Shown: piece after piece, positions 4,072 to 39,417 of the stretch
Position numbering within the stretch: the stretch's first letter is position 1
Layout of the letters: each line of letters starts with the position of its first letter
Assembly (NCBI GenBank): GCA_944389495.1
Contig: CALXMN010000007.1
Span: forward strand, 1-43,224
Source of the DNA: an uncultured Alphaproteobacteria bacterium
GTDB lineage: Bacteria > Pseudomonadota > Alphaproteobacteria > Rs-D84
Length of the DNA: 43,224 bases
Reading direction: 5' to 3'
Notes under the pieces: generated by a model
What the model was told of the DNA's origin: nothing
The model's database searches: none
The model's input: the letters and a program-made list of their open reading frames with translations, nothing else
Position numbers and translations under genes: made by a program

Positions 4072-4503
4072 TTAGTCGGATAAATTGCCAAACATTGCCG
4101 TTCGAAATGATTCATTGTCCCGGCTGTCAAGTGCGCAGTCACGTGCACAATTGCGGGCACAAAAGTCCGCATTTGTTATCGTGTTGTGGAACACCAAAGG
4201 TGATACACCGGGTGAAACCAGTTTGCACCAACAATATTTGTCGTCTGTCCCGTTGCTGACAGTCAAGGACGTGGTGGTTTGGCCGTCGATGCTGCCGCTG
4301 GTGCTGGAACATTGGCTTATGCCACTTATTGTGATGTTGGTACCATTGGATGTACAGTTTAAAGTCCAATCAACGGCATAAGCACCGGGATAGACATATG
4401 AACATTCTGTACCGGAATTTAATGCCACACACTTGGTAACGGCCGTGGCGGGCGAGAATGGGAACGTAAACATCAGTCCCACAATTAATAAATGTTTTTT
4501 CAT
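4072..4503 (-). CDS. Secreted Cys-rich protein, 'MKKHLL' family, copy 1
   Basis: The product is 143 aa with a signal peptide (MKKHLLIVGLMF..., cleaved near TA-V, about residue 21). The mature part has a Cys-poor, Ser/Thr/Asn-rich beta-like middle, then a YCWC-[KR]-[LM]-[IV]-SP motif, a CARNCARDCA cluster and a conserved FRTAMFGNLSD tail. The paralogue at 34541-34963 shares signal peptide, CWC motif and tail, while the middle is divergent, as expected for an exposed or partner-specific face. Its start is preceded by GGGAGATAAGAAT. Upstream lies leader RNA copy 1 (4710-4536), whose terminator ends about 33 bases before this ATG, so expression is probably controlled by attenuation. It is the first gene of the pair with 3777-4058. 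Confidence 0.85.
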   Translation of the reverse strand: MKKHLLIVGLMFTFPFSPATAVTKCVALNSGTECSYVYPGAYAVDWTLNCTSNGTNITISGISQCSSTSGSIDGQTTTSLTVSNGTDDKYCWCKLVSPGVSPLVFHNTITNADFCARNCARDCALDSRDNESFRTAMFGNLSD

Positions 4504-4535: not shown

Positions 4536-4710
4536 AAAAAAACACCGGAAAGGTTCAGGTGGTTGGGGTTTAAGAACAATCAGTAGTAATTGCGTGGTTT
4601 ATTCGATATATTCGTCACACCCCAACCGCGTGGGTTGGATCGTTTTTACGTAGTTATGCCAACGCTGCTGATGTGATCCTTAAGCTCGATGTGGGGAAAC
4701 ATCCCGCATC
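4536..4710 (-). promoter_or_regulatory. Structured attenuator/riboswitch-like leader RNA, copy 1
   Basis: Positions are on the minus strand. Hairpin P1 is GATGCGGG (4710-4703) with CCCCACATC (4696-4688) around an ATGTTT loop. The long-range helix pairs TTAAGGAT (4683-4676) with GTTCTTAA (4577-4570), including two G-U pairs that replace Watson-Crick pairs of copy 2. Hairpin ATCCAACC (4640-4633)/GGTTGGGG (4627-4620) is followed by GTGTG...CACGC enclosing GAATA...GAATAA. The later strand ACCCCAACC (4569-4561) can instead pair nine bases with GGTTGGGGT (4627-4619). CACC/GGTG plus seven T (to 4536) resembles a weak terminator. It directly precedes the gene at 4503. Confidence 0.75.
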
Positions 4711-4763
4711 AAGTTAATAATGTCATACGTGGATTGTACTGTTGTTTATATTTGTATCTTTGT

Positions 4764-4787
4764 AAAAAATCCCGCCAATGGCGGGGA
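4764..4787 (-). terminator. Intrinsic terminator of the 9896-4796 operon
   Basis: On the minus strand CCCCGCC-ATT-GGCGGG is followed by ATTTTTT, just after the stop codon of the OmpA-fusion gene. It also separates that operon from leader copy 1. Confidence 0.85.
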
Positions 4788-4795
4788 TGTTTAAT

Positions 4796-7225
4796 TTAGC
4801 ATTTGCTGTTAGAAAATTCAATTACAACCTTGCGACACGATTTGTCATATTTTGTGTTGCTGGTACATTGGGATGAACCAACGCCCGATGCGGTTATGTT
4901 GTTGGCATTCAGGCCGGCCGTTATCAGTGCGGAACGTACCGCATTTGCGCGTCGTTCAGACAATGGAACATTAATTGCGTCTGAACCACTTTTATCTGTG
5001 TGGCCCGTTATGTTGATGCAATATTCTGTTTGATTTTGCAATGCAGTGTTAACATCTGTAACAAATGTGTTTATTACACTTTGTGCATCGGCCGTTAATT
5101 TATCCGAATTTAATTCAAACAAATTACTGGCGTTTAATTCGATGGGTTCGATTTCCTTGGGCGTGATAACCGCCGGGGTTACAGATTTCGTGACACATTG
5201 ACCGTTTGCATCCAGTGTATGTGTTGCCGTTGGGCATTCGCATTTCGGTGGTGTTGTCGTACTTAATACATAACCATCTGTACAGGTGCAGTCGCCGGTT
5301 TGCGGATCAACCGTTACGTGTCCCGCAGATGTATCGCATTTCGCAACAATCGTCGGTGTCGCCGGTGTTACACAGGTGTTGTTTTCGCCCGGTAATGTTC
5401 CGGATGGACAATCGCATACATTGTTAATGGATATTTTGTCGCCGGGGCAAACCTCGCATAAATTTGTGTTTGCGTTATGGATGTATTTTGAATTTGTGCA
5501 TACACAATTTGGATATGTGCCGGTTGAATCCGATGGGCATTTGGCGGTTGCCTCGGCATCCGGTAACTTGGCCGTGTTGTCACGCAGTTTTTTTAATGGT
5601 TCATATTTGGCCAAGATTTCGGCGGAACTTTCTTGGGGTTTGTCGCCAATGTGATTGGCCAAAATGTTCCCGCCAATTCCAAGTAATGCGCCCGCGCCCG
5701 CAATGGCTGCACCCGTACGTAATTGTGATGTGGTGTCGGCCTGTTGCGCGGCCCAGGCGGCGGCATCTGCGCCCGCAGGATTGGCCAGTGCACGTGATAC
5801 TGATGCGTATGCGCCGCCGGTTATTCCGGTTGCCGCGTTATCATACAGACCAGATGTGGCGGGATCAAGGATAACCTCGGCCTCGATACCGGGTAACATT
5901 CCCAATGATTCTTTGCGTAATTTCAAATCTGCGGCCAATGCAGTATATTCGTTATACAATGGCAATAATACATTTGCACCCGGTACAGAAATATTTGTTT
6001 CGCCACCAATGATGTTCATTCCCTGGCCATAGTCGCACCGAAAAGTTGCCAGATATGCCGCCATTTCGCGTTCTGCATCCGAATCCGCATTGCGTTCGGC
6101 CAATGCAGATGCGACTTGCATCCCGCCAATACCCATTGCACCAATCGCGGCACCACCGATCAATTTGTTTGCGGTTGATTGTTCACGTTCGCGCATTGCA
6201 TCGGCGTTTTTCTGTAATTCGGCAATTTGTTTTTCGGAATCTTCTTTGGACAATGTTGGTTCTATACAGGATTTTTTATCATTGCTGATACTGAATCCGT
6301 CTTTGCAGGCGTCGATTATACAAATCTCGGTACTTGTGGTGGCGTCCCATTCACGGTGTGCCGCGGTTGCGTTTTCCGGCATAGGATCGCAATTTCCCGA
6401 AATAGGAACGCATTTTCCATCAGATACATCGTATCCCGCCGCGCATTCCGTGGCATAACAAACCCCGTCACGCAATTCACCCGCGGTTGCGTGCTCGATT
6501 TGTGCAAGTTGGGCCGCAGAACAAGGGCCAGAACTGACTTCACAGGCGGTCCCATCAGAGTTCGGCAGATAACCTTTGTTACATTCTTGGATTTTGCATT
6601 TTAATGTTTCGTTTTCCCATACGTATTCGGCGCGCTTGGAATTTGTGTCGGTGGCGGTACATTTTTTGCCAACCTGGTCAACACAGGCGTCGCCGATTGT
6701 AACCGATGTACACTGGGAATCGGTACAAAATTCTTCGCACGGGCCACCTTCGGCATTGGAGCCCAGGCATACGGCGTTGTTACTGCTTAACTGTACAGAA
6801 CGCGGATTTTCCAATGCATAGCGTTCAGATGTGCAGACGGTCGGAATGCATTGTTTGCTTGCAATGTCGTATACCGCCAAACGCATATTTTTTTCTGGGT
6901 CAGGAGAGCATCCCATAACAACAACGTCGCCCAATAGTATTTCATCGTCTTGTAATACAATGTTCAGATTTGTGCCCGGGGCAACAACCTGGGTTTTGTA
7001 GCCAACATATGATATTTGTATATCTGTATTTTCCGGAAAATTATTAATTGTAAAGTTTCCGTCAATGTTCGTTGTGCCGCCAACCCCAGTAGAACCAACC
7101 GGAACAATTGATGCACCCGGCAGTGGCAGCCCCGTCGAATCAACAACACGGCCCGATACAGTTATTTCCGCCATCGCGGGCAGGGCGAATAATAAAGTAA
7201 ATATACTGACCAAATATTTTTTCAT
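4796..7225 (-). CDS. Secreted CarboxypepD_reg-like / EGF-like Cys-rich / OmpA C-terminal fusion protein
   Basis: The product is 809 aa. Signal peptide (about 1-19, ALPAMA-E); a CarboxypepD_reg-like beta-sandwich (about 21-105) with VSGRVVDSTG, PLPGASI, a DGNFTI turn and SYVGYKTQ, closing with LLGDVVVMG. That arrangement is the signature seen before the plug of Bacteroidetes SusC-type receptors. Next come Cys-rich EGF-like modules (about 105-315), a coiled coil with two Gly-zipper segments (about 335-560), more Cys-rich EGF-like repeats (about 560-660) and an OmpA domain (about 690-809). The OmpA domain carries the peptidoglycan-binding residues in ITGHTDKSG and NVPLSERRANAV. It probably anchors a periplasmic or outer-membrane complex to the cell wall. 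Last gene of the 9896-4796 operon. A GGGGAA site favours the ATG at 7225 over 7243. Confidence 0.85.
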   Translation of the reverse strand: MKKYLVSIFTLLFALPAMAEITVSGRVVDSTGLPLPGASIVPVGSTGVGGTTNIDGNFTINNFPENTDIQISYVGYKTQVVAPGTNLNIVLQDDEILLGDVVVMGCSPDPEKNMRLAVYDIASKQCIPTVCTSERYALENPRSVQLSSNNAVCLGSNAEGGPCEEFCTDSQCTSVTIGDACVDQVGKKCTATDTNSKRAEYVWENETLKCKIQECNKGYLPNSDGTACEVSSGPCSAAQLAQIEHATAGELRDGVCYATECAAGYDVSDGKCVPISGNCDPMPENATAAHREWDATTSTEICIIDACKDGFSISNDKKSCIEPTLSKEDSEKQIAELQKNADAMREREQSTANKLIGGAAIGAMGIGGMQVASALAERNADSDAEREMAAYLATFRCDYGQGMNIIGGETNISVPGANVLLPLYNEYTALAADLKLRKESLGMLPGIEAEVILDPATSGLYDNAATGITGGAYASVSRALANPAGADAAAWAAQQADTTSQLRTGAAIAGAGALLGIGGNILANHIGDKPQESSAEILAKYEPLKKLRDNTAKLPDAEATAKCPSDSTGTYPNCVCTNSKYIHNANTNLCEVCPGDKISINNVCDCPSGTLPGENNTCVTPATPTIVAKCDTSAGHVTVDPQTGDCTCTDGYVLSTTTPPKCECPTATHTLDANGQCVTKSVTPAVITPKEIEPIELNASNLFELNSDKLTADAQSVINTFVTDVNTALQNQTEYCINITGHTDKSGSDAINVPLSERRANAVRSALITAGLNANNITASGVGSSQCTSNTKYDKSCRKVVIEFSNSKC

Positions 7226-7246
7226 ATTTTTGTTATTCCCCATTTA

Positions 7247-16529: not shown

Positions 16530-17942
16530 ATGCTAGAATATTTACGTAATGCGGCGGACAAGCCGGTCGCAAAGATTTTAATTGGAATTTTGGCTTTTTC
16601 TTTTGTTGGGTGGGGCGTTGCAGAATGGATTTTTGGTGGCGCGGCAAGTGATACAACTTTGGTGCGCGTAGGTAATGCAGATGTTACCATCCAGCAGTTC
16701 AGTTTGGAAAAATCGCGTGAATTGGCCGCAATGACTCGCGAACAACAGCGCGAAGTATATGCCGATCCAATCAAGACCCAGGCATTAAATAAACAGGTTA
16801 TGACAACACTGACCACCCAGGCAATGGCCGATAATCGGGCCGCTGATTTGGGGTTTGTTGTATCGGATGCCCAGATTGCACGTGAAATTCGTGCATTTCC
16901 AGAATTTCAAATTGATGGCCAGTTTTCAACATTTGCGTTCGATTCCGTCTTGGCAAACAGCGGATACAGCGAGGCGTCTTTTGCCGATGTTCTGCGTCGC
17001 CAGGTTTTGCGTGGATATACACTGGGGGCGATGTCTATCCCGGTCGAAGTGCCCGAATTTGCTGTTCAGGCCGTGTTTGATGCGCGATATGCACAACGTG
17101 AAATAGACTATGTGACCGTTGATTTTGATGATTCCAAGGTCGGTAACCCAACCGAAGATGATTTGCGGGCATTCTATGACCAAAATCCGCATATCGTGCC
17201 GGAACAGCGTACTGTGTCTTATGTTTTGGTGCCGGCCGAAATGGATAAACCGGACAGTTATGACGCCGCATATGAACAGGCAATCGCCGTCGAAGATGAT
17301 ATTATTGCCGGAAATTCTATGGCCGATGCCGCAGATGCACACGATGCCAAGTTTGTTGCATTGGGGACATTTGATGCGGAAAACAGGCCCGTGGACGAGA
17401 TTATGAATGATGTAATGTTGGCGCGCGTGTTCGATATGGAAGAGGGGTTGGAAAGTGAACTGATTGAAACCAAAAAGGGCTTTGTCATTGTGCGTGTTGA
17501 TAAAGTTATTCCATCCCATAATGCGGAATTTGATTCGGTGCGCGATGAATTGGTTGGTGCGTGGAAACGTGCTGAACAGCGTAAACAGGCATATGTCCGT
17601 GCAAATGAATTATTGGTCGATTTAAACCAAAATGGTAAATTGGATGGAAAAAAAACAGTAAATGTGACGCGGGCGGCGGGGGCGCCGTTGGATGTGCTGA
17701 ATGCCGCATTTAATTCTGAAATTGGCAATAATTCTATTGTTAATGGTACGGATGCGTTCTTTGTTTTGCACATAGAAAGTGAAACCGCGCCGGATGCAGA
17801 TGAAAAAAAGATGGCCGAAATTCGTGTCGAATTAGAAAAAATGATGACCCAGGAAATTGCCGAAGATTATAATGCGTTTTTGCTTCGTGAATATCCCATA
17901 GAGGTTAATGAAAAGGTATTCAATCGTTTCTTTGCAAAATAA
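16530..17942 (+). CDS. ppiD: PpiD/SurA-type membrane-anchored periplasmic chaperone (parvulin family)
   Basis: The product is 470 aa. The N-terminus has a short cytoplasmic piece (MLEYLRNAADKPVAK), one TM helix (about 16-36) and the periplasmic SurA_N-like chaperone domain (about 40-185), with the family patterns VGNADVTIQQF and QALNKQVMTTLTTQAMADN. A reduced parvulin-like region (about 205-335) includes LGTFDAENRP and GFVIVRVDKV, but the canonical catalytic Cys/His residues of active parvulins are not obvious. It may be chaperone-only, as PpiD is often described. The gene lies next to and divergent from tpiA. AAAGGGGATTAA precedes the ATG. It probably assists folding of exported proteins, which are abundant here. 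Confidence 0.9.
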   Translation: MLEYLRNAADKPVAKILIGILAFSFVGWGVAEWIFGGAASDTTLVRVGNADVTIQQFSLEKSRELAAMTREQQREVYADPIKTQALNKQVMTTLTTQAMADNRAADLGFVVSDAQIAREIRAFPEFQIDGQFSTFAFDSVLANSGYSEASFADVLRRQVLRGYTLGAMSIPVEVPEFAVQAVFDARYAQREIDYVTVDFDDSKVGNPTEDDLRAFYDQNPHIVPEQRTVSYVLVPAEMDKPDSYDAAYEQAIAVEDDIIAGNSMADAADAHDAKFVALGTFDAENRPVDEIMNDVMLARVFDMEEGLESELIETKKGFVIVRVDKVIPSHNAEFDSVRDELVGAWKRAEQRKQAYVRANELLVDLNQNGKLDGKKTVNVTRAAGAPLDVLNAAFNSEIGNNSIVNGTDAFFVLHIESETAPDADEKKMAEIRVELEKMMTQEIAEDYNAFLLREYPIEVNEKVFNRFFAK

Positions 17943-18649: not shown

Positions 18650-19615
18650 TTTATAATAACAATTTTGGGTGTACGCGTATTTGCCGGTAACATCAGACAA
18701 TTCTTTTCCGGCCGAAATATAACATTGCGTTATACTGGTATTTGTGGCGGCTGTACTGGTGCCGGGGGATGGGCACTGGGTACATCCAGATGTACCATTA
18801 GTTGATGTTCCATAATATCCATTTGCACAACGATATGATGTTGTGGCGGCGGTGCAAGAACCATTTTCAAATGTGGCCATTGTTTGCTTTTCATAACCGG
18901 TTGCCGTTGTTGTCCACACGTTATATCCACAAATATAGTTTGTTGCCCAAGATGGCAATGTATCAAATATATCCAGTACAGAGCAGATTTTTGGATATGT
19001 GTTTGTACACATACAGTTTTCTACGCCATCCGGGCATTCAAATTCAAATTTGTCCATTACCCGACAACCAGATGCTGACATTGTGGTTTTTACGCAACCG
19101 GTTTGACCATCTGTGGATGTGCCGCAATATCCGGATGCGCAACGGTATTCAATTGTTTGATTTATACATTCACCATATGAAGTACAAGAATTATTAACAC
19201 ACGTTCCACCTGTTTTTTTTATTTCATATCCCGTGCCATAACTTTCCCAACCTGTATCAACACACGCGGTACAGGGTAATGGTTCATCACAGTCGTCGCC
19301 ACCACCACCACCACCTGGATTCTGACCGTCACTGCCCAAATCTACACCTGTGACCGGGTCTACGGTTCCGGTAAGATTGTCATTGCACGTGCACCGTTCC
19401 GCCCATCTTGGGCAATGATCCCTATAAACATCTGTTATTCTGCATATTGGTGGATTGGCATTGTTACATATACAGTTTGGATTGTTGCCAGGAAAAAATT
19501 CTAAATCCTCCGCAGATGGACAGCCATTGAACCAATCTTGTGTTATACATCCATATGAATGTGCGACACGTGGTAATACCAGTAATATTAATACCGTAAA
19601 AAATATTTTTTTCAT
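18647..19615 (-). CDS. Secreted Cys-rich protein, mosaic pair member A
   Basis: The product is 322 aa. Signal peptide (MKKIFFTVLILLVL..., to about residue 19, AHS-Y). A variable N-terminal Cys domain (about 20-95) is followed by a Gly-rich linker GGGGGGDD (about 100), a domain beginning LPCTACVDTGWESYGTGYE (about 107-165), a second variable Cys segment and a C-terminal module. That module has the pattern C-x2-CP-x-PGTST...CY-[IV]-x5-LSD-x-TG-x-Y, ending CYYK. The linker plus following domain is nearly identical at DNA level to 29832-30494, whereas the N-terminal domain is not. The protein is one module longer than its partner. The ATG at 19615 has GGGGG five bases upstream. Its 127-nt leader is 96% identical to that of the partner. 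Probably surface-exposed; function unknown. Confidence 0.85.
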   Translation of the reverse strand: MKKIFFTVLILLVLPRVAHSYGCITQDWFNGCPSAEDLEFFPGNNPNCICNNANPPICRITDVYRDHCPRWAERCTCNDNLTGTVDPVTGVDLGSDGQNPGGGGGGDDCDEPLPCTACVDTGWESYGTGYEIKKTGGTCVNNSCTSYGECINQTIEYRCASGYCGTSTDGQTGCVKTTMSASGCRVMDKFEFECPDGVENCMCTNTYPKICSVLDIFDTLPSWATNYICGYNVWTTTATGYEKQTMATFENGSCTAATTSYRCANGYYGTSTNGTSGCTQCPSPGTSTAATNTSITQCYISAGKELSDVTGKYAYTQNCYYK

Positions 19616-19741
19616 TTTTCCCCCATTAAAATGACCGTTTGGATTCGTCAAAAAGGGGAAATAAAAAATCCCGGAAATCCGGGGTTTTTACAGGTAATAA
19701 AAAAGCCGCTTGTAAACGGTGGTTTTTTTTCGGCTTTGATT
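19613..19741 (-). promoter_or_regulatory. Leader A: tandem terminators plus RBS-sequestering pair
   Basis: In gene orientation: AAAGCCG (19737-19731)/CGGCTTT (19708-19702) with a T run; then CCCGGATTTCCGGG (within 19684-19669) with a T run; then TTTCCCC (19661-19655), which can pair with the GGGGGAAA Shine-Dalgarno (19624-19617). In addition ACCGTTT (19720-19714) is complementary to AAACGGT (19640-19634). The same elements recur before 30494. This suggests premature termination and translational control. Confidence 0.55.
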
Positions 19742-29832: not shown

Positions 29833-30494
29833 CAATTGTAATAACAGTCATTTGTAAAGGTATAATCGCCTGTATTGTCGGACAGTGCTGTATTTTTTGG
29901 AACATAACATTGTATTACGTAGTTTGCGGGTGGCGTACTGGTTCCCGGTGCGGGACAGGAAATGCATCCGGATGTACCATTAGTTGATTTTCCCCAATAT
30001 CCCGTGGCGCAACGGTATTCAATTGTTTGATTTATACATTCACCATATGAAGTACAAGAATTATTAATACAGGTTCCACCTGTTTTTTTTATTTCATATC
30101 CCGTGCCATAACTTTCCCAGCCTGTATTAACACACGCGGTACAGGGTAATGGGTCGTCACAGTCGCCGCCACCACCTCCACCCTCTGGATATACTGGGGC
30201 ACCGGTGTCTGGATTTACGTCGCCCCTTTCTCCGCTGGTACATTGGCATTGTAGATTGTCTGCGCCATAGTAATTTGTTGGGCATTTCCCATCATATATA
30301 TCCGTCATCCTGCATATTACCGATGGTGGTCTTGAACATACACAGGTTGGGTCTTCTGCTATTGACCCCCAACCCAAATCACGTGCACTTGGGCACGTAT
30401 CTTGGAAAGTATTTGTTACTCTGCAGGCATATTGGGTTGCATCTGCAATATTTGGCAGCATTATTATGATCAGTGAATAAATAATTTTTTTCAT
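29832..30494 (-). CDS. Secreted Cys-rich protein, mosaic pair member B
   Basis: The product is 220 aa. Signal peptide (MKKIIYSLIIIMLP..., to about 19, ADA-T), a variable Cys-rich N-terminal domain (about 20-95) only distantly similar to that of member A, then a Gly-rich linker and the nearly identical segment LPCTACVNTGWESYGTGYE through TIEYRCA (about 107-160). It ends with the C-x2-CPAPGTST module terminating TNDCYYN. Compared with 18647-19615 it lacks the central extra Cys segment. The ATG at 30494 is preceded by the same GGGGG site. The leader and promoter arrangement are shared with member A. It looks like the product of domain shuffling or gene conversion. Confidence 0.85.
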   Translation of the reverse strand: MKKIIYSLIIIMLPNIADATQYACRVTNTFQDTCPSARDLGWGSIAEDPTCVCSRPPSVICRMTDIYDGKCPTNYYGADNLQCQCTSGERGDVNPDTGAPVYPEGGGGGGDCDDPLPCTACVNTGWESYGTGYEIKKTGGTCINNSCTSYGECINQTIEYRCATGYWGKSTNGTSGCISCPAPGTSTPPANYVIQCYVPKNTALSDNTGDYTFTNDCYYN

Positions 30495-30619
30495 TTTTCC
30501 CCCATTAAAATGACCGTTTGGATTCGGCAAAAAGGGGAAATAAAAAATCCCGGAAATCCGGGGTTTTACAGGCAATAAAAAAGCCACTTGTAAACGGTGG
30601 TTTTTTTCGGCTTTGTTTG
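30492..30619 (-). promoter_or_regulatory. Leader B: tandem terminators plus RBS-sequestering pair
   Basis: About 96% identical to the leader at 19613-19741 (five differences, mainly single-base indels in T runs). The ACCGTTT/AAACGGT and TTTCCCC/GGGGAAA pairings and the two hairpins are intact. One change in the first stem (G to A) affects the AGCCG/CGGCT pair. Confidence 0.55.
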
Positions 30620-34540: not shown

Positions 34541-34963
34541 TTAGTCAGACAGATTACTGAACAACGCGGACCGGAAAGACGTAGGGATCTGAGCGTAGTA
34601 CGCACAGTTGTACGCGCAATCGTCCGCGCAAGTATAGGCCGACAAGCTCGCGTTGTTGAAAACCCAGCGCGACACCGCAGGTGAAATCATTCTGCACCAA
34701 CAATATTTGTTATCATCACTGGTTGTACTGATTGTAACGGCGGTGGAGGTTGCACCCTGTGAACCACCGTTTTGCGAACCACAAAATGCAACACCCTGTA
34801 TTGATACGCCACCGCAAGTTGCGGACCAATTTGATTGACCGTGTTCGCCCGAATAAGTGGAACACGTTGTTGATGACGTTAATTTTACGCATTTGGTGAC
34901 GGCAAACGCCGGTGGAATTATGGCCACGCACAGCAGGCCGGCAATTAATAAATGTTTTTTCAT
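34541..34963 (-). CDS. Secreted Cys-rich protein, 'MKKHLL' family, copy 2
   Basis: The product is 140 aa. Signal peptide MKKHLLIAGLLC... (cleaved near AFA-V), mature start VTKCVKL as in copy 1 (VTKCVAL), a divergent Ser/Thr/Gly-rich middle, then KYCWCRMISPAVSRWVF, a CADDCAYNCA cluster and the tail FRSALFSNLSD. The region upstream of the ATG (GGAGATAAGAATATG) is identical to copy 1. Controlled, I infer, by leader RNA copy 2. The middle differs strongly while ends are conserved, which suggests diversifying pressure on the centre. Confidence 0.85.
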   Translation of the reverse strand: MKKHLLIAGLLCVAIIPPAFAVTKCVKLTSSTTCSTYSGEHGQSNWSATCGGVSIQGVAFCGSQNGGSQGATSTAVTISTTSDDNKYCWCRMISPAVSRWVFNNASLSAYTCADDCAYNCAYYAQIPTSFRSALFSNLSD

Positions 34964-34994: not shown

Positions 34995-35167
34995 TAAAGA
35001 AAACCACCAGAAATCTCAGGTGGTTGGAGTTTAAGAACAATCCAATAAATTGCGTGTTTTATTCTGTATATTCAACACACTCCAACCATTATGGTTGGAT
35101 TAGTTTTTCGTCCGTATTACAGACGTATTGGATGGGTTCTTAAGCCCAATATGTGAACACCACATAT
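34995..35167 (-). promoter_or_regulatory. Structured attenuator/riboswitch-like leader RNA, copy 2
   Basis: Minus strand, 5' to 3'. P1 ATATGTG (35167-35161)/CACATAT (35155-35149) with loop GTGTT. Long-range helix TTAAGAAC (35143-35136)/GTTCTTAA (35038-35031), eight Watson-Crick pairs. It encloses CGTCTG/CGGACG (35125-35109), TCCAACC/GGTTGGA (35099-35081) and GTGTGTT/AACACGC (35080-35052) with loop GAATA...GAATAA. Then ACTCCAACCA (35030-35021), able to pair ten bases with TGGTTGGAGT (35088-35079), overlaps the terminator stem ACCACC/GGTGGT (35024-35003). The two states are mutually exclusive. Confidence 0.8.
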
Positions 35168-35219
35168 CAATGTTTATTATTATCACAGCCTGTAAATAAA
35201 TCAACGATAAAATCATTCA

Positions 35220-38864: not shown

Positions 38865-38870
38865 GTATGG

Positions 38871-39049
38871 CGTATCGGCGTGTTACCGGTATGGGGTGTC
38901 ACAACCCGTCAAAACGCGTTTCGCATATGCGAAATGAAAAAATCTCCAACCCGGGGTTGGAGGGTGCTGAATAACCAATAAAGCACACTATTCGTTTTGA
39001 TAGTTGTGAACCTCCAACCCACCTGAAAAAATTTTTTCCGGTGGTTTTT
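38871..39049 (+). promoter_or_regulatory. Structured attenuator/riboswitch-like leader RNA, copy 3
   Basis: P1 TATCGG (38873-38878)/CCGGTA with loop CGTGTTA. Long-range helix TCACAAC (38899-38905)/GTTGTGA (39003-39009), different bases from copies 1 and 2 but still paired. A 16-base perfect palindrome around GCATATGC follows, then CTCCAACC/GGTTGGAG (38944-38962), then GTGCT/AGCAC (38964-38986) with loop GAATAACCAATAA. CCTCCAACCC (39011-39020) can pair ten bases with GGGTTGGAGG. Terminator CCACC-T-GAAAAAA/TTTTTTC-C-GGTGG, then TTTTT (39019-39049). It precedes the Xre gene by 17 bases. Confidence 0.75.
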
Positions 39050-39066
39050 ATTATGGGGGGAAAATT

Positions 39067-39417
39067 ATGGTTGGAATAAAGCACCGGGCGTGTGAATTTG
39101 ATATTAATGCCGGACGGATTATTACAATGCTGCGCACGCGTATGGGATTAAGCCAGCAGGATTTGGGTAAAAAATTGGGCGTTACTTTTCAGCAAATTCA
39201 AAAATATGAAAGTGGAAAAAGCAGTTTAACCGCCGCACGATTGGGCGATGTTTGTCGTGTGTTTGAAGTTTCGCCGGCCGCGTTTTATGACGAAGCAAAT
39301 CGGCCGTATATTAGTGATGGGCATATGATGAAATTAATAAATACCATTTATAAATTACCAAATGACAGGCGTAATATTATTTTGCAAATTGCCACCGCAT
39401 TTCATTTGGCGGGTTAA
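39067..39417 (+). CDS. Xre/Cro-family helix-turn-helix regulator
   Basis: The product is 116 aa, cytoplasmic. An HTH_3 domain lies at about 17-73: GRIITMLRTRMGLSQQDLGK, then VTFQQIQKYESGKSSLTAARL, then VFEVSPAAFYD. The helical C-terminus (KLINTIYKLPNDRRNIILQIATAFHL) is typical of the small alphaproteobacterial Xre regulators. It may regulate envelope or stress genes; its targets cannot be told. A GGGGGG run six bases before the ATG is the likely ribosome-binding site. The gene follows leader RNA copy 3, so its level is probably set by attenuation. It overlaps the convergent lytic transglycosylase gene by 4 bp. Confidence 0.9.
   Translation: MVGIKHRACEFDINAGRIITMLRTRMGLSQQDLGKKLGVTFQQIQKYESGKSSLTAARLGDVCRVFEVSPAAFYDEANRPYISDGHMMKLINTIYKLPNDRRNIILQIATAFHLAG

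Follow-up and report, generated by a model that had tools for sequence, protein, structure and literature searches.

A candidate transcription attenuator in a family of structured leader RNAs from the Rs-D84 lineage of Alphaproteobacteria

Which role is played by an element of about 175 bases that lies immediately ahead of a gene for a secreted protein in an uncultured alphaproteobacterium? The window (the whole stretch of DNA analyzed, 43,224 nt) belongs to the order Rs-D84 (Ca. Enterousia), an uncultured group with genomes of less than or about 1 Mb and a possible dependence on partner cells (PMC12306168). A first-pass annotation had placed a leader RNA at positions 4536-4710, and our covariance model, built from 43 copies, confirmed the element as a match at 4536-4712 on the minus strand, a strand that the annotation had not given. 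Our comparison extended this picture to a multi-pseudoknot RNA of ~175 nt on the minus strand with its own promoter.

Leader copies in the window and across the order

The features of the window are as follows.

4536..4712, minus strand: leader RNA copy 1, whole element, 177 nt (covariance model R1, 125.7 bits, E 3e-32), made up of P0, the S1/S2 pseudoknot, the X/P5 pseudoknot, P2, P3 (the A:B hairpin), P4, strand C, and the terminator
4634..4641, minus strand: strand A ATCCAACC of copy 1, putative anti-antiterminator (sequence and aligned columns)
4620..4628, minus strand: strand B GGTTGGGGT of copy 1, with A or C as predicted partner (sequence and aligned columns)
4564..4572, minus strand: strand C ACCCCAACC of copy 1, predicted partner of B, whose AACC end overlaps the 5' arm of the terminator
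4537..4565, minus strand: weak intrinsic terminator of copy 1, CACC/GGTG and a T-run (hairpin, -5.5 kcal/mol)
4072..4503, minus strand: gene downstream of copy 1, a 143-aa Cys-rich protein with a signal peptide (MKKHLLIVGLM...)
34998..35170, minus strand: leader RNA copy 2, canonical (157.5 bits)
34541..34963, minus strand: gene downstream of copy 2, a 140-aa secreted paralogue of the same protein family as the copy 1 gene
38870..39050, plus strand: leader RNA copy 3, with B GGTTGGAGG and C CCTCCAACC (109.3 bits)
39067..39417, plus strand: gene downstream of copy 3, a 116-aa Cro/C1-type helix-turn-helix (HTH) protein starting 16 nt past the leader
4762..4790, minus strand: inverted repeat with a T-run, 3' of an OmpA-family gene (4796-7243, minus strand)

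Read from 5' to 3', copy 1 begins with the P0 hairpin, S1 with its loop CTTAAGGA, strand X, P2, A, and B, and continues with P4 (loop GAATATATCGAATAA), P5, the S2 strand GTTCTTAA, C, and a CACC...GGTG-T7 terminator, followed by the Shine-Dalgarno (SD) sequence and start codon GGGAGATAAGAAT-ATG. The same order of elements recurs in copy 2, and the distance of about 33 nt to the gene, previously noted for both copies, was measured as 32 nt (copy 1) and 34 nt (copy 2) from the model end to the ATG. Because the inverted repeat at 4762-4790 would terminate the preceding OmpA-family gene, copy 1 needs a transcription start of its own. Elsewhere in the window, positions 19094-19688 and 29964-30567 form a long direct repeat with ~90% identity across 227 nt.

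A DNA search with copy 1 recovered seven places in the genome, and the covariance model matched the 0.9-Mb genome at 24 sites (E <= 0.001), three of them within the window. Matches occurred in 56 of the 59 genomes of the genus (54 copies in the relative G072, 28 in G089) and, throughout the order, in 176 of 190 genomes and 19 of 22 genera. Three genomes of the genus that are at least 90% complete (G134, G064, and G149) had no match, and the RNA is therefore dispensable in some species. At the class level, 20 of 289 genomes matched, and 17 of these lie outside the order, with best E-values from 2.6e-18 to 7.5e-4, which points to a sporadic occurrence elsewhere in Alphaproteobacteria; under strict filters, a phylum sample gave 2 of 398 genomes, both of the window's genus. 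Copies were present on three IMG/VR contigs, one of which also has genes for a tail sheath and a tape measure. At L243:12019-12194, on an IMG/VR contig bearing phage genes for a contractile tail, the leader lies 20 nt before a 316-aa ORF, for which no PHROG match was found. The phage and plasmid collections searched contained no match to the leader. Rfam at the gathering score returned no family in the window and only tRNAs at divergent loci, a permissive Rfam search of five loci (L001-L005) gave nothing credible on the leader, and the literature on the lineage and on orphan leaders yielded no description of it. The leader RNA family appears to be undescribed.

RNA architecture and the exchange of strands

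Comparison of the copies indicated that the feature is a genuine, heavily structured RNA of ~175 bases. Structure statistics were computed on sets of 43 and 122 copies, and both pairing and covariation exceeded all 500 shuffles, counts that are descriptive rather than probabilities because copies within one genome are related; a slid-column control that kept this relatedness also gave values far under the observed ones. Among the 122 copies, S1 (GGG/CCC) was paired at 97.0%, S2 (the S1 loop with the strand just before C) at 91.4% with two-sided changes seen somewhere at all seven pairs, A:B at 97.9%, and P5 at 99.2%; in the 43-copy set, P2 reached 89% and P4 81%. The X helix was misaligned by MAFFT and was accordingly tested by per-copy complementarity: X against the P5 loop gave a mean contiguous run of 6.7 bp, compared with 3.05 +/- 0.09 for mismatched copies. 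S1 and S2 follow the order of an H-type pseudoknot, X/P5 forms a second one, and both pseudoknots covary. The P4 loop GAAUAUAUUGAAUAA is the most conserved unpaired part of the leader. It reads GAAUA...GAAUA in all copies, and in three outgroups (L248, L249, and L254) an additional stem closes the motif, which there forms an internal loop (AAAUAA / GAAUA). This GAAUA/GAAUA motif is a possible symmetric binding site.

The central feature is a set of three pairings, A:B, B:C, and C:D, each paired at ~95% among the 122 copies, which the sequences predict to be mutually exclusive, with C doubling as the 5' arm of the terminator. The first-pass annotation had interpreted the long-range GGTTGG/CCAACC pairing as a selected state, citing a changed base in B of copy 1 that is matched in the downstream strand. 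Both points held. Relative to copy 2 (GGTTGGAGT), an A-to-G change in B is accompanied by a U-to-C change in C, restoring a Watson-Crick pair, and strand A of copy 1 keeps a T opposite the changed base, leaving a wobble. Across the family, B:C was paired at 97.9% in 43 copies and 94.7% in 122, where most misses came from ~16 copies with B GTCAGGAGG and C CCTCCTGAC, in which the fixed columns skip one extra T in CCTCCTGAC and direct reading restores full B:C pairing. A ninth B:C pair, lying outside A:B, also covaries (GC 66, UA 40, AU 2, UG 5, GU 1, other 8; 122 copies). Comparison with homologous loci further revealed that the three switch strands change in concert, both within the genus and in other alphaproteobacterial families, as in L247 (B GGCGAGAGG, C CCTCTCGCC, A CCTCTCGC) and L249 (B GGCAGGAAG, C CTTCCTGCC). 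Three-strand sets were also sought blindly outside the family and were present in 17 of 29 copies, versus 10 of 1160 shuffles. The covarying B:C-only pair and the concerted changes in all three strands imply selection on B:C.

It had also been suspected that copy 1, with a terminator stem of only CACC/GGTG, might be leakier. Its hairpin is the fifth weakest among the 122 copies (median, -10.2 kcal/mol), and when both states of the three copies were compared by constrained folding with nearest-neighbour energies, the antiterminator was favoured in copy 1 alone, where it is the computed global minimum (-44.8, against -40.9 for the terminator state), unlike in copy 2 (terminator state -61.9, antiterminator -43.7) and copy 3 (-69.2 and -55.4, respectively). 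Nested folds of this kind put the antiterminator at a disadvantage, since it and S2 exclude each other there, and nested folding alone is insufficient because S2/S1, X/P5, and B:C/S2 are pseudoknots. For the local helices only, the difference (A:B + C:D) minus B:C had a median of -5.8 kcal/mol, the individual values being -7.2 (copy 2), -6.0 (copy 3), and +1.7 (copy 1); by these values, termination is the probable default state and copy 1 probably leaks, with a bias towards read-through, and the default carries the uncertainty of nearest-neighbour energies, which ignore pseudoknots and tertiary contacts. The median gap of 5.8 kcal/mol is one that a signal could reverse. Signs of decay in copy 1, namely a broken S1 GGG/CCC hairpin and a shortened X helix, suggest that its leakiness may represent a loss of control.

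Gene linkage, tandem arrays, and readings of the leader

In 103 of 132 copies, the model end is followed at 13-39 nt by the start of an SD-led ORF (at least 40 aa), compared with 0 of 132 in a mirrored control and 4.3% of random positions (216 of 5000). A -10 box with at least five of six matches was found in 124 of the 132 copies (58 after shuffling), and in 114 the best match lay 7-12 nt ahead of P0. No promoter fits into the short stretch that separates the terminator from the start codon, and the genes should therefore rely on read-through for their expression. Signal-peptide-like N-termini were present in 69 of 107 SD-led ORFs (5 after shuffling). In a Pfam scan of 84 downstream proteins, Cro/C1-type HTH proteins formed the largest group, joined by outer-membrane proteins (OMP), PAP2, and glycosyltransferase groups; most proteins had no Pfam family, and this also holds for the 143-aa Cys-rich protein downstream of copy 1. 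The latter belongs to a secreted Cys-rich family of ~140 aa (motifs CWCKM.SPAVS.WV and CAxxCA) with ~20 paralogues in this genome, of which ~13 are preceded by a leader and some are not. Damaged leaders precede damaged genes at L003 (B lost, gene frameshifted), and those at L044 and L006/L073 likewise stand before broken or start-less genes (start lost at L006/L073). At L019/L053, L038, and L076, leaders have tRNA-like sequence GCTCTAACCAGCTGAGCTAACCACCC beside them and an HTH-like ORF of 62-66 aa after them; such a location beside tRNA genes is a possible sign of integration. At G000:C4:16582-16744(-) and 16850-17000(+), two leaders stand back to back ~105 nt apart, one preceding a pseudogene and the other a small HTH-like ORF.

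Comparative sequence analysis thus establishes the promoter position, the helices, the exclusive A:B / B:C / C:D pairings, and the gene linkage, and on this basis the leader is likely to be a cis-acting, riboswitch-like transcription attenuator; we infer that it switches in the cell and is off by default. RNA polymerase would start at P0 from the dedicated promoter, and the nascent RNA would fold P0, the S1/S2 pseudoknot, P2, the A:B hairpin, P4, and P5, whose loop pairs with X. By default, B would be held by A, leaving C free for the terminator, and transcription would stop ~30 nt ahead of the gene. A signal would stabilise B:C, located between P4 and S2, thereby removing AACC from the terminator arm and allowing the gene to be transcribed. 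For this signal, a small ligand seems somewhat more probable than a protein or another factor, with the two pseudoknots and tightly packed junctions resembling ligand-binding aptamers. The same anatomy might instead be switched by a protein, a tRNA, or another macromolecule, for example a dimer on the near-symmetric GAAUA/GAAUA loop of P4. The conservation of that loop, which extends to other families (AAAUAA.../...GAAUA), and the many HTH regulators among the regulated genes speak for such a switch, which we regard as possible but on the doubtful side given the aptamer-like architecture.

Tandem arrays bear on a further alternative. At L277 (G104:C2:66900-69600), L076, L067, and L278-L280, two to five complete copies follow one another at ~240-nt spacing, each with promoter and terminator, and only the final copy is followed by a gene. 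Spacers were 89-99% identical in the three arrays with at least two comparable spacers; P0 was mostly >90% and terminators 90-100% identical, and identity in the inner S1-P3 region was 44-83%. Despite 53 two-sided changes, 99.7% of pairs were kept, suggesting that the gene-less copies are under selection for structure, because pairs persist while the inner sequence diverges. These intact gene-less copies count against the attenuator, since a pure leader needs none, and would suit a stand-alone, trans-acting small RNA that has a promoter and a terminator to itself and for which the neighbouring genes are of secondary importance. We nevertheless consider this quite unlikely, as the SD-led ORF keeps its position relative to the leader, with gene-less array copies as the exception, no space exists for a second promoter, and a B:C antiterminator would be pointless. 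Array copies could possibly act as series attenuators, provide insulation between copies, or have a trans role. It is also conceivable, although improbable, that the leaders additionally form a diversified set in which S2, X, P2, and P4 are copy-specific barcodes for insulation or for a trans or decoy role of the gene-less copies.

A leader expressed constitutively past a leaky terminator, with an alternative pairing that never switches, would fit the predicted greater stability of A:B plus C:D over B:C in most copies; the covarying ninth pair and the concerted changes of the three strands make it very unlikely. Ribosome-dependent attenuation, in which the SD-like GGAG of B would serve a short ORF behind it, can practically be dismissed: B is purine-rich and 59 of 122 copies have GTG or TTG ahead of the P4 loop, but many others carry GCG, CTG, ACG, or CCG as the start triplet, the end of the frame varies widely in position, the helices covary as RNA, and with start and frame this variable no conserved short ORF was found.

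Relation to known systems and significance

As in riboswitches, a structured, conserved domain lies in an mRNA 5' leader, and comparative evidence points to an expression platform with mutually exclusive structures. The attenuator reading resembles transcription-terminating riboswitches in its 5' leader position, pseudoknotted sensor-like domain, and antiterminator/terminator exchange, but differs in the lack of an Rfam match, the unusually many copies per genome, and the promoter carried by each tandem copy. Tandem arrangements of such riboswitches are mentioned in the literature (PMC9481103). The exchange of A:B, B:C, and C:D follows the same logic as the 1:2, 2:3, 3:4 exchange of trp-type attenuators, which differ from our leader in having a conserved leader peptide. 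T-box leaders combine terminator/antiterminator competition with an H-type pseudoknot; the genes downstream of our leader are not aminoacylation genes, and no Rfam T-box match was found in the window. Type III toxin-antitoxin RNAs (ToxI-like) are pseudoknotted, have their own terminator and a gene just downstream, and can occur in tandem, whereas the units here are ~240 nt long and promoter-bearing, and many unrelated gene types rather than one toxin family follow them. c-di-GMP-I (GEMM) riboswitches occur in many copies per genome ahead of genes for surface or extracellular proteins. Our leader shares the high copy number and the secreted or surface-type genes downstream but has a different fold and no Rfam match; a search for GGDEF (PF00990) in the 96.8% complete genome found none (8 of 14 control genomes were positive), which disfavours c-di-GMP as the signal.

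If the barcode reading were true, bacteria whose genomes are strongly reduced would possess, in these leaders, a global layer of RNA-based control. The family presents a concrete orphan-ligand problem, for which the sequence offers directly testable switch mutants. With about two thirds of leader-linked genes having signal-peptide-like starts and many others encoding HTH regulators, one RNA class ahead of dozens of genes would be a main regulatory channel in Rs-D84.
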